This document shows positions 7,686-10,216 of a stretch of 53,514 bases of DNA, piece after piece. The notes under the pieces are model-generated. The model ran no database searches and was not told the DNA's origin. It saw only the letters and a list, made by a program, of their open reading frames with translations. Each line of letters opens with the position of its first letter. The stretch's first letter is position 1. This DNA is from Saprospiraceae bacterium (lineage in GTDB: Bacteria > Bacteroidota > Bacteroidia > Chitinophagales > Saprospiraceae): contig JAHDBH010000012.1 of the NCBI GenBank assembly GCA_020630495.1, positions 1,306 through 54,819 on the forward strand. Reading direction: 5' to 3'. Both the position numbers and the translations under genes were made by a program.

Positions 7686-7708
7686 TTACATTTTACTGTA
7701 AAATGTAA
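7686..7708. promoter_or_regulatory. Perfect 23-bp palindrome, candidate operator
   Basis: Two 11-bp arms (TTACATTTTAC and its exact complement) flank one central T. It lies 18 bases upstream of the winged-helix/phosphoribosyltransferase gene and just upstream of that gene's -7-like element. It is therefore well placed for a dimeric repressor, possibly the product of the gene itself (inference). Confidence 0.6.
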
Positions 7709-7714
7709 TTTATA

Positions 7715-7722
7715 TATCTTTA
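7715..7722 (+). promoter_or_regulatory. -7-like element TATCTTTA, 4 nt from start codon
   Basis: TATCTTTA is followed by CCCC and then the ATG at 7727. The region where the -33 element should fall is covered by the 23-bp palindrome, so a bound repressor would block it. Confidence 0.5.
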
Positions 7723-7726
7723 CCCC

Positions 7727-8728
7727 ATGAACACACCAACCGCACACTCCCAAATCCTGGCCCTCCTCCATAAACACCATACCCTACGCCCCATACACAT
7801 CCAAAAACTTACCGGCCTCTCCAGACAGCGCATTCACTCCATCCTCAAAGCTCTCGTACAATCGCAAGTAGCTATCAAGAAAGGTATGGCACCGCGCACA
7901 TACTACTCTCTCAGCAAACCTGGTAGCAGATCTTCCGAAACCGTGTTGCAGCTCACAAGCGCTCAGAGAGAATCCCTTACTACAGAGTTCATTCTTATCA
8001 AGAAAGAAGGACACCAAGTTACAGGGCAAGCAGCCGTGTGCGAATACGCTTATGAGCACAATCTTGACCCGCAAAAAGTCGCTGAAGAATTTCTACAAGA
8101 TAGGGCCCAAGCAGCTCCTAACGACCCTGAGGAAAACGATCACTTAGTAGAACTGCTAGAAGAAAAAAAAGCTGTGAAGGCTGGGACACTGACTCACTAC
8201 AACTTCGCAGATTACAAGGAAACTCGACGATTCGGCGCCACAGCTCTTGCTCAGCGCCTGTGTGCCGCCAAATCAAGCCAAAATCTGGTGATGCAAGTAG
8301 AGATCTTCAAGAAAATCGAAGAGCAGATTCACGCATTCATAGATGAATGTATGATAGATGCTGTGGCTTTTGTACCGAGTAGCACCGCCGCAGGAAAGAC
8401 ATTTATGCGCGAGTGGAAAGAGTATCTTGACCTTCCCTTTCCCCACATCAATCTCGTCCATCCTAGTAATGGTGACAATGTGCCCCAGAGCGCGATTTCC
8501 ATGACCACGCACAAGACAGCAAATGCCGAGCAAAATATGGCCATCGACGATCACCGTTGCTACACACATGTACTCCTCCTGGATGATACTGTGCTTACTG
8601 GCGCAACTCTCCAGAGTACCGCCGCCGCCCTACTCGATCAGGGTCGCACGCAGCAGGTATCAGCCTTTGCTATCATTCACAAGCAGACTCCAAGTCAATC
8701 CTTTGGACAAAGAGCAGAAAATCAGTAG
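7727..8728 (+). CDS. Winged-helix / phosphoribosyltransferase-domain regulator
   Basis: 333 residues. Residues 5-65 read as a winged helix-turn-helix: three helices with recognition segment 'LSRQRIHSILKAL', then a basic wing 'KKGMAPRTYYSLSK'. Residues of about 180-325 form a phosphoribosyltransferase-like domain with the PRPP-loop sequence VLLLDDTVLTGAT (Asp286, Asp287, Thr291, Gly292, Thr294). The order wHTH then PRTase is the architecture of the Gram-positive purine regulator PurR, although I see no close sequence similarity. It may sense PRPP or a nucleotide and control nearby genes (inference). The perfect palindrome in front of the gene suggests autoregulation. An alternative is a salvage-type PRTase fused to a DNA-binding domain. 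Confidence 0.65.
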   Translation: MNTPTAHSQILALLHKHHTLRPIHIQKLTGLSRQRIHSILKALVQSQVAIKKGMAPRTYYSLSKPGSRSSETVLQLTSAQRESLTTEFILIKKEGHQVTGQAAVCEYAYEHNLDPQKVAEEFLQDRAQAAPNDPEENDHLVELLEEKKAVKAGTLTHYNFADYKETRRFGATALAQRLCAAKSSQNLVMQVEIFKKIEEQIHAFIDECMIDAVAFVPSSTAAGKTFMREWKEYLDLPFPHINLVHPSNGDNVPQSAISMTTHKTANAEQNMAIDDHRCYTHVLLLDDTVLTGATLQSTAAALLDQGRTQQVSAFAIIHKQTPSQSFGQRAENQ

Positions 8729-8772: not shown

Positions 8773-8811
8773 AAAAAAAGGAAAGACATATGCTCCCACA
8801 TGTCTTTCCTT
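8773..8811 (-). terminator. Rho-independent terminator for the Nudix gene
   Basis: A perfect 12-bp stem (AAGGAAAGACAT at 8778-8789 with its complement at 8800-8811) encloses a 10-nt loop. On the minus strand it is followed by a run of T (8779-8773), so it serves the Nudix gene ending at 8935. Confidence 0.75.
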
Positions 8812-8934: not shown

Positions 8935-9555
8935 TCACTCCCCATCACCCATGTACCAGCCCATGACACGGAGGATACTCGCATAGATAGGGCGCTTTCG
9001 CGCAAATGCTGCCGCATCCATCCACAGCGCCTCCTCTATACCCTCTTCTTGCTGACCCACTAGCTCCGTCATCGCACCTGAAAAGCGATACCAATGCGTC
9101 TTCTTCAGGACACGGCGATCCTTGCTATCCCTGTAGACATGATAGGTGCTTCCCAGCTTAGCCTCTATGCTCAGCAGTTCTAGACCTATCTCCTCTGTGA
9201 TCTCTCTACGAGCTGCAGGTTTCTTCTTTTCGCCCGTCTCTATCTTGCCTTTCGGTAGATCCCACACACCATGTCGCTTGATGACAGCGATCTTTCCCTC
9301 AGCCTCTACCACGCCACCCGCTGCACGCAGAAATCGAAACAGCCCCTTAAAATCAGCATACATACTCTTCACATCCTCGTCCCAGAGGATGACCCGCTTC
9401 ACATTGGGTGATTTCTCCAGGAGATCAATGTAATTATGGAGTTGCTTGACCTTGCCTTGGTAGCGGATGCAGAGGTCATTAGGTTGTTGATATGTGTTCA
9501 TCTCACGTCCTGTACAGAGCAAGAGTTGAGAGTCATTAAAGTAGATGTTGTACAT
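8935..9555 (-). CDS. Nudix hydrolase
   Basis: 206 residues. Residues 103-125 form a complete Nudix box (GKIETG..E.......REITEEIGL, i.e. Gx5Ex7REUxEExGU), so the protein should hydrolyse a nucleoside-diphosphate-linked substrate with a divalent metal. The N-terminal ~75 residues form an extra domain seen in Bacteroidota members. I chose the ATG at 9555 ('MYNIYFNDSQ') because a start at 9636 would run through pyrE. It is divergent from pyrE with 25 bp between starts, and is followed by a strong terminator. It contains a CATTT mini-hairpin. The substrate is not predictable from the box alone. Confidence 0.88.
   Translation of the reverse strand: MYNIYFNDSQLLLCTGREMNTYQQPNDLCIRYQGKVKQLHNYIDLLEKSPNVKRVILWDEDVKSMYADFKGLFRFLRAAGGVVEAEGKIAVIKRHGVWDLPKGKIETGEKKKPAARREITEEIGLELLSIEAKLGSTYHVYRDSKDRRVLKKTHWYRFSGAMTELVGQQEEGIEEALWMDAAAFARKRPIYASILRVMGWYMGDGE
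8992..9008 (-). repeat. CATTT mini-hairpin copy 2
   Basis: On the minus strand: CATTT, stem GCGC/GCGC, loop GAAA. It is identical to copy 1 but read in another frame (codons for FARKR in the Nudix gene). Confidence 0.75.
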
Positions 9556-9558
9556 TTG
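9551..9558 (+). promoter_or_regulatory. -7 element TACATTTG for pyrE
   Basis: An exact TAnnTTTG match lies 22 bases before the pyrE TTG start. It overlaps the start codon of the divergent Nudix gene (9553-9555). No convincing -33 element is seen. Confidence 0.4.
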
Positions 9559-9580
9559 AACTAAGCGATAAAGAGGGCCA

Positions 9581-10216
9581 TTGGAATCAAAAAACAGCAA
9601 AGAAATAGCAGCAGGACTACTGCAAATAGGTGCCATAAAGTTACAAGTAGATCAGCCCTTCATCTGGGCAAGCGGATGGAAATCCCCGATATACTGCGAT
9701 AATCGTATGTCACTCAGTCACCCAGCTCTGCGAGATCTCATCAAGCGAAGTTTTCTTGAGTACATTGACGACCATCAGCTCACCGCAGATGTCATCGCCG
9801 GAGTAGCCACAGGAGGCGTTCCCTACGGTGCATTGATAGCTGATGAGGCAGATCTGCCCTTCGTCTATGTGCGCAGTCAGAGCAAAGGCCACGGCAGACA
9901 GAATACTGTAGAAGGGGATCTACAATCTGGTCAGAAGTGCGTGGTCATAGAAGACCTCGTATCCACAGGCGCCAGCAGCATGAAAGCAGTAGTCTCCCTC
10001 AGAGAAGCTGGAGCTGTGGTCACTGATACCATTAGCATATTCACCTACGGATTTGATCAATCAGGAGTACTATTCCAGAATGGAGACTGCTCACTGCACA
10101 GCCTTGTACACTACGACGATATGATTACCGAGGCCCACCGCTTAGACTACATCAAGCCTGATCAGATCAAGGAACTCAAACAATGGCGCCAGTCGCCATC
10201 ATCGTGGAAGGCATAG
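9581..10216 (+). CDS. pyrE: Orotate phosphoribosyltransferase
   Basis: 211 residues. It converts orotate and PRPP to orotidine 5'-phosphate in de novo pyrimidine synthesis (cytosol). The PRPP loop VVIEDLVSTGAS is at 121-132 (acidic pair Glu124/Asp125). The catalytic flexible loop 'SKGHGRQN' at about 101-108 supplies Lys102 and His104. 'FIWASGWKSPIYCDNR' near residues 27-42 is the usual family signature. The start codon is TTG: an in-frame TAA lies at 9569-9571 and there is no ATG or GTG before the conserved region. It may share regulation with the wHTH-PRTase gene two genes upstream (inference). Confidence 0.95.
   Translation: MESKNSKEIAAGLLQIGAIKLQVDQPFIWASGWKSPIYCDNRMSLSHPALRDLIKRSFLEYIDDHQLTADVIAGVATGGVPYGALIADEADLPFVYVRSQSKGHGRQNTVEGDLQSGQKCVVIEDLVSTGASSMKAVVSLREAGAVVTDTISIFTYGFDQSGVLFQNGDCSLHSLVHYDDMITEAHRLDYIKPDQIKELKQWRQSPSSWKA

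Follow-up and report, generated by a model that had tools for sequence, protein, structure and literature searches.

A stand-alone winged-helix/phosphoribosyltransferase-like protein, probably an autorepressor, with ten loci and matching orphan palindromes in one Saprospiraceae genome

We analyzed a stretch of 53,514 nucleotides from a Saprospiraceae bacterium (contig JAHDBH010000012.1), hereafter the window, which carries a gene for a protein with a winged helix (wHTH) and a phosphoribosyltransferase (PRTase)-like domain. The features of the gene and its upstream region are as follows.

7686..7708, no strand: perfect 23-bp palindrome TTACATTTTACTGTAAAATGTAA, proposed autorepressor operator (palindrome scan, simulation, paralogue comparison)
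7715..7722, + strand: −7-like element TATCTTTA, one mismatch from TAnnTTTG, with 4 bases between its end and the ATG (promoter scan)
7727..8728, + strand: wHTH-PRTase gene, 333 aa (ORF calling, homologue searches)
7739..7918, + strand: winged-helix domain, residues 5–64, with the recognition helix at about 33–45 and the wing at 49–62 (AlphaFold2 model, VIA-align; Pfam MarR_2 below cut-off)
8189..8686, + strand: PRTase-like domain, residues ~155–320, PsyrT/RqlH-ComF-like (NCBIfam, PADLOC, Foldseek, profile search)
8582..8608, + strand: PRPP-binding loop D286–T294 (DDTVLTGAT) (translation, alignment)

The ORF at 7727–8728 has the layout proposed in the initial annotation: a PRTase-like domain follows a winged helix, and its PRPP loop is intact, with D286, D287, and G292 invariant across 16 aligned homologues. 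AlphaFold2 and VIA-align agreed with the N-terminal assignment: residues 1–60 were modeled as a winged helix with pLDDT of 78–94 (blocks of ten). The model as a whole was moderate (mean pLDDT 75, pTM 0.57), with lower confidence for the PRTase-like part than for the winged helix. The VIA-align rows, which cover almost exclusively the winged helix, placed Zalpha, AspA, MarR, and ArsR domains in a tie at Z of ~10–11. Matches of the window protein were sub-threshold both in Pfam (MarR_2 at residues 4–45; Pribosyltran at residues 281–317, 0.047) and in NCBIfam (comF, PyrR, and others). In Foldseek, run with the first model, the neighbors of the C-terminal part were HPRT, PyrR, and H. pylori ComF, with E near 1e-3. 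About 50 bases past the stop codon, an inverted repeat, GGAAAGACAT...ATGTCTTTCC (8780–8809), is perhaps a terminator.

The palindrome TTACATTTTACTGTAAAATGTAA lies at 7686–7708 with 18 bases to the ATG, as originally noted. All other perfect palindromes (centre 0 or 1) of the whole window are shorter, and an 11-base arm was reached in 0/60 first-order Markov simulations of the window. Promoters of Bacteroidota consist of a −33 element and a −7 element, TAnnTTTG. Because TATCTTTA begins 12 bases ahead of the ATG, the palindrome occupies the place where the −33 contact would be, in agreement with the initial proposal. The position of the −7-like element also suggests that the mRNA of the window gene is leaderless or nearly so. 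Near-identical palindromes, with 1–3 differences from TTACATTTTACTGTAAAATGTAA, are present in the same genome at C126 (two), C256, and C198, and most other paralogues have related yet different palindromes at the equivalent place. This position is kept even in distant homologues, so the palindrome is neither unique nor unconserved. It is most likely the own operator of the window gene, and the earlier idea of an autoregulated transcription factor gains good support from these comparisons.

Searching the own genome with the protein gave 11 matches in ten loci, nine of them full-length. The eight full-length paralogues are 40–50% identical to the window protein, and the tenth locus, on C70, is a 73-residue copy of the winged helix only. 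Among 60 genomes searched, the own genome included, four had a match: besides G008 and G044, there was a weak PRTase-only match in G039. Among 298 genomes of the family, again including the own genome, four others had a full-length copy (G008, G212, G116, G170), G296 had a broken copy, and G152 a PRTase piece; 175/298 matched at E≤0.001, and nearly all of those listed were weak matches to the PRTase part, as ComF would give. At E≤1e-20, only three of 395 genomes of the phylum matched: the own genome, G465, and G502, the last with a decayed copy. This last remnant (L149) lacks the start and the middle of the gene and still keeps its promoter palindrome. One peptide pattern searched against 84,980 genomes gave two named records, both MAGs, one from the Bacteroidetes (JANYGK010000115.1) and the other from the Patescibacteria (JAMCZE010000008.1). 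Because there are few carriers among the genomes searched, the family is rare and patchy, and its expansion is seen in the own genome only, copies per genome having been scored up to 5–7 in the searches of 298 and 395 genomes. Carriage by phages or plasmids was considered and rejected: no relatives were found in IMG/VR with the one peptide pattern used, and the G116 homologue as query gave no match in plasmids. The same query gave two remote GntX-region matches in phages, and 21 stretches in IMG/VR carry the operator pattern.

We compared the upstream regions across the family. A clear palindrome precedes the start in 8/10 own-genome loci and in 8/8 homologues examined from other genomes, one of them the Patescibacteria MAG. 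When the 80 bp preceding the ATG were scored for their best palindrome, at least 9/11 arm bases were paired in 15/17 family genes (own-genome loci 8/10, other-genome homologues 7/7) versus 4/199 control genes. Against these controls, all taken from the own genome also for the homologues of other genomes, Mann-Whitney p was 2e-7 for the ten own loci and 7e-7 for the seven homologues. C275 (7/11) and C234 (8/11) score at control level; by eye, C275 has a palindrome with a wider centre. The best palindrome lies 50–52 bases before the ATG in JANYGK and G116, three tandem copies are present in G212, and in G465, the eighth homologue, TTTGACTATTGATAGTCAATAGTCAAATG abuts or extends into the start codon. 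In the Patescibacteria copy, the palindrome appears by eye to lie within a sigma-70-like promoter.

An exact TAnnTTTG was found within 60 bp before the ATG in 13/18 family genes (inside the palindrome in C261), and it starts 12–15 bases before the ATG in six of the nine other own-genome loci. Within 45 bp of the site, it is present in 7/10 own promoters versus 3.7% of random, mostly coding, 91-mers. Since the palindrome overlaps the promoter, repression rather than activation would be expected; against this, in G044, G212, G116, JANYGK, and G465, TAnnTTTG precedes the palindrome closest to the ATG or coincides with its left edge.

The divergence of the operators was compared with that of the two protein domains. 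For 14 genes, operator distance correlated with winged-helix distance (Mantel rho 0.53, p 6e-4) and with PRTase distance (rho 0.28, p 0.013); for the seven own-genome genes alone, the values were 0.49 (p 0.026) for the winged helix versus 0.34 (p 0.14) for the PRTase. In these tests operators and register were chosen by eye, and C275, C234, C70, and G465 were left out. At the level of sequence, then, the operator tracks the winged helix more closely than it does the PRTase domain. We also searched four other genomes for operator sites (G212, G044, and G465 with their own operator, and G116; G170, G008, JANYGK, and the Patescibacteria MAG were left out). All sites with 0–1 mismatch in G212 were at the gene's own promoter, with two 3-mismatch sites elsewhere; G044 had an exact site at the gene and one 3-mismatch site elsewhere; the matches in G116, whose operator is two bases off the pattern, were solely at the gene (2–3 mismatches); and the sole match in G465 was at the gene's own promoter (at most 1 mismatch). 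As good matches in G212, G044, and G465 are confined to the own promoter, a stand-alone autorepressor whose sole good target is itself fits these genomes.

A genome-wide site search showed that the window palindrome is not unique, with sites in the own genome both at family promoters and between other genes. The 11-mer TTTACNGTAAA occurs 18 times in the own genome versus 2 for the reversed control, six times at family promoters and 12 times between other genes. In 59 relatives it occurs 1–48 times each and exceeds the reversed control in 11; the ratio to the control is highest in the own genome (9), followed by 4. A 19-base pattern with ≤3 mismatches gave 51 sites versus 13 for the control. 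Fifty of these were listed and one was unlisted: eight lie at family promoters, 30 were kept as orphan sites, and 12 were dropped as probable chance matches or another type (C220 four, C70 two, six others). The 30 orphan operator-like sites lie in 13 intergenic regions outside family promoters, 'intergenic' being defined by our own ORF calling, with ORFs of ~100 aa that overlap sites in C201, C151, and C205 taken as spurious. In four of the 13 regions (C33, C54 at 25 kb, C71, and C307 at 13 kb), a single site was counted, and C301:5 and C303:33, at contig ends sharing 55 bases, may be one site.

When compared with the eight paralogue operators, 18/30 orphan sites had one unique nearest operator within 3 differences, whereas the other 12 had ties or were 4–7 differences away. 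Several paralogues have their own site type. Clear pairs with the window-type operator are C126, one C256 site, and one C198 site; with the C261 type, C301 and C303, including the outer AACATACAT; with the C111b type, sites in C201, C151, C256, and C54; and with the C307 type, C54 at 25 kb, C205, and C307 at 13 kb. Within a region, sites are alike (mean distance 3.65 vs 5.64 shuffled, p 2e-4), in part because some form tandem arrays of 90–122-bp units.

The ten genes scanned near orphan sites are mutually unrelated: RuvB, a DEAD helicase, an M36 peptidase, pyruvate kinase, thymidylate synthase, GH3, TPR, two secreted proteins, and DUF7935. In C201 (L032:313-790), five palindromes lie ~2.6 kb before a gene that resembles dnaA by eye, and in C307 at 13 kb (L073:4948-5120), four ACTTTAGTATAAAGTGTAA-like sites were seen by eye in the divergent region before the thymidylate synthase gene. 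The 46 bases that end C205 (L071) recur identically where the region before paralogue C307 begins (L025, tRNA region), which could place the C205 sites a short way upstream of the paralogue that is cognate to them. Two further kinds of palindrome were observed. C220 (L072:5250-5910) holds a tandem array of ~122-bp units, each with TTTACACCTAAGTGTAAAGTGTAA or a close form and in at least five copies by eye; this palindrome matches a second palindrome upstream of the winged-helix-only C70 fragment. Palindromes like GACTATTGATAGTCAATAGTC (0–1 mismatch) are present at C155:11033-11355 and C278:45032 (L121, L122). GACTATTGATAGTCAATAGTC is the operator of the G465 homologue, from another taxonomic family, and a matching gene was not found in the own genome.

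Several explanations of the orphan regions were tried and rejected. As dead gene copies, they gave a best tblastn E of 0.62 and blastn matches of 11–23 bases only (ten own loci against 17 intergenic regions). As RNA genes, 13 loci (C301, C33, and C71 left out) gave only two tRNAs and a TPP riboswitch in Rfam; the riboswitch (L121:1291-1380) lies upstream of an 817-aa ORF that resembles an outer-membrane receptor by eye. As ordinary promoters, TAnnTTTG was within 45 bp in 4/32 sites, compared with the family promoters and random 91-mers described above (in this count the contig-end sites C301:5 and C303:33 were omitted and four C155/C278 sites were added). As a longer mobile unit, the 400-bp flanks of genes and orphan regions share little beyond the palindromes, apart from isolated 17–18-base matches and the 46-base C205/C307 contig-end match.

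The orphan palindromes look like REP/BIME elements, and they could be a REP-like repeat family unrelated to the regulators, with an incidental likeness to the operators. They are short and intergenic, some lie in 90–122 bp tandem units, and the 12 sites without a unique near operator fit such a family. The 18 sites within 3 differences of one particular operator and the outer bases that C261 shares with C301/C303 do not. As for a REP/RAYT identity, which was rejected, the genome has a single partial Y1 transposase match (Y1_Tnp, C36), and its 1.7-kb locus is free of such palindromes. We consider an incidental likeness improbable. The orphan sites may instead regulate, hold proteins, or merely record the spread of operator DNA. 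After a limited literature search, we know of no described system that matches a ten-locus expansion with matching orphan sites, which is the surprising part of these results.

We favor, with a probability of roughly 70%, a stand-alone wHTH/PRTase-like autorepressor that expanded to ten loci with diverged protein–operator pairs and accumulated operator copies. Comparison supplies the architecture, the promoter placement, and the conservation of the palindrome; it also shows that the palindrome co-varies with the winged helix and that 18/30 orphan sites each match one particular paralogue's operator. From here we infer DNA binding, repression, a ligand, and any orphan-site effect. The window protein, related to the C-terminal half of PsyrT/RqlH and acting on its own, would bind the palindrome as a dimer via the winged helix and shut off its own leaderless promoter. 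PRPP or a nucleotide is the most likely ligand of the PRTase-like domain, whose PRPP loop is intact, and its binding would either release the protein from DNA or serve a catalytic or effector activity. That a PRTase-like domain can be a ligand switch is known from PurR (PMC8789054). The gene would have multiplied to ten loci while winged helix and operator diverged together, and therefore the paralogues would not silence each other. Operator copies would have built up in stretches between other genes, with the cognate proteins expected to bind there and be titrated. Three roles are conceivable for the PRTase domain and the extra sites: autorepression under ligand control, an effector of the toxin/defence kind, or operator repeats that spread.

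If the autorepressor reading is right, the puzzling PRTase domains of PsyrT/RqlH, ShosT, ComF, and retron III-A would gain a simple relative, encoded by a single gene and specific for a DNA sequence, with a ligand and a DNA site that are directly testable. One genome would offer a natural set of about ten protein–operator pairs for the divergence of winged-helix specificity. It would also add an unexplained class of operator-like intergenic repeats.

The initial annotation had likened the protein to PurR and suggested PRPP or nucleotide sensing, with pyrE within 1 kb. The likeness stands for the layout, but kinship with PurR and a role in pyrimidine or purine control are not supported. The sequence similarity is not significant (profile A1 against PDB: 1p4a, E 0.45; 1o57, E 0.46), and no purR model is among 19 NCBIfam rows at E≤1. 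The PurBox has a central CGAA and is paired with 16–17 bp spacing, as PMC8789054 describes. The operators of the own loci and of the homologues scored lack CGAA. Indeed, pyrE lies 0.85 kb past the stop codon (9581–10216), but an antisense NUDIX gene (8935–9636) separates it from the window gene, and neither pyrE nor another nucleotide gene was a shared neighbor among 22 neighboring proteins scanned by Pfam. At 9581–9636 the NUDIX gene and pyrE overlap at the beginnings of their ORFs (TTG for pyrE), and one start is probably further in. No sites at pur or pyr genes were seen in the regions read, and the ten site-adjacent genes scanned, one of them thymidylate synthase, show no pattern of a nucleotide-gene regulon; that candidate was rejected, and PurR membership was rejected on sequence, operators, and context. 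A PRPP-sensing metabolic regulator of pyrE or other nucleotide genes could still draw on the layout with its intact PRPP loop, on the nearby pyrE, on a nucleoside transporter beside paralogue C111a, and on the thymidylate synthase beside the C307 sites. It is unlikely, given that operators vary between paralogues and that good matches are limited to the own promoter in G212, G044, and G465.

The kinship of the PRTase part bears on another reading. The PADLOC PsyrT model matched 11/11 members of alignment A1 (best 4e-22) and the window protein over residues 7–319 at model positions 367–684 of 689 (E 1.7e-15); other models matched fewer members (Csa3 9/11, ShosT 7/11, retron PRTase_III-A up to 3/11). 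In a five-sequence search, a 16-homologue profile matched four Bacteroidota PsyrT proteins with E of 4e-7 to 1e-10. The three PsyrT alignments examined cover the PRTase region, that of L156 also the preceding stretch and that of L153 also a weak winged-helix piece. Among NCBIfam models, TIGR00201 comF was best (1.5e-4, 21.8 bits vs the cut-off of 233.55), and H. pylori ComF was third in Foldseek (E 9.9e-4, TM 0.30 by query). Judged from these alignments, the nearest relatives of the PRTase part are in the PsyrT/RqlH-ShosT-ComF group, although the similarity is remote.

These matches raise the possibility of a toxin- or defence-like effector similar to those of PsyrT, ShosT, and retron III-A, whose level would be limited by tight autorepression, with the ten loci as insulated modules. 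The patchy distribution among the 298 family and 395 phylum genomes would fit, as would decayed copies (G502, C70, G296) and diverged operators, which are consistent with gain and loss. The PRTase domain is needed for the toxicity of RqlH, according to PMC4670107, and this branch can therefore be toxic when other parts are present. However, Csa3, a wHTH regulator, likewise matches 9/11 members, so the PADLOC matches by themselves are no proof of a function in defence. The scanned neighbors are mostly housekeeping genes with no DprA among them, RVT_1 has no match in the genome, and neither IMG/VR (one peptide pattern) nor plasmids (G116 query) gave a relative. We regard such an effector as possible, yet well behind the autorepressor. 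Retron RT-DNA sequesters effectors. By analogy, PsyrT/retron III-A-like wHTH-PRTase effectors might be held inactive on scattered operators and freed by damage or degradation of the host chromosome, the chromosomal palindromes acting as a DNA 'antitoxin' or DNA sensor. This idea is highly speculative and the least probable that we considered; if true, it would be a protein–repeat partnership without transposase, reverse transcriptase, or antitoxin protein.

Our preferred autorepressor can be set beside five known systems. AspA of plasmid pNOB8, a winged-helix centromere-binding protein, is the best PDB winged-helix sequence match (E 0.014, not significant; Z 11.1), but only the winged helix, a very common fold, is in common, and other wHTH domains tie with it. 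ComF/ComFC has an N-terminal zinc finger where the window protein has a winged helix, and it binds PRPP and nucleotides with an undecided role, according to PMC9005727; the only competence-like neighbor seen is a ChlI/ComM-type gene beside the G044 homologue. In retrons of type III-A, PRTase and winged-helix proteins form one functional unit (PMC12548924). The two domains likewise occur together here, but fused in one protein, and a retron identity was rejected, as RVT_1 (PF00078) had no match in the own genome (94.6% complete; the control matched in 3/14). Bacillus PurR shares the fusion of a winged helix to a PRTase-like domain, which makes a ligand-controlled repressor plausible here, but it differs in sequence and operators, and no pur/pyr regulon was seen. 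PsyrT/RqlH, a RecQ-like helicase with a C-terminal PRTase and the toxin side of PsyrTA/RqlHI, appears to belong to the same PRTase-domain clade by remote similarity. It differs in that the window protein (333 aa) has no helicase match, and no DprA-like partner was found among the 22 neighboring proteins, a subset of neighbors, scanned by Pfam. The stretch before the reading frame in four Bacteroidota PsyrT loci scores 7–8/11, at control level, whereas the genes of the present family have their own palindromic operator.
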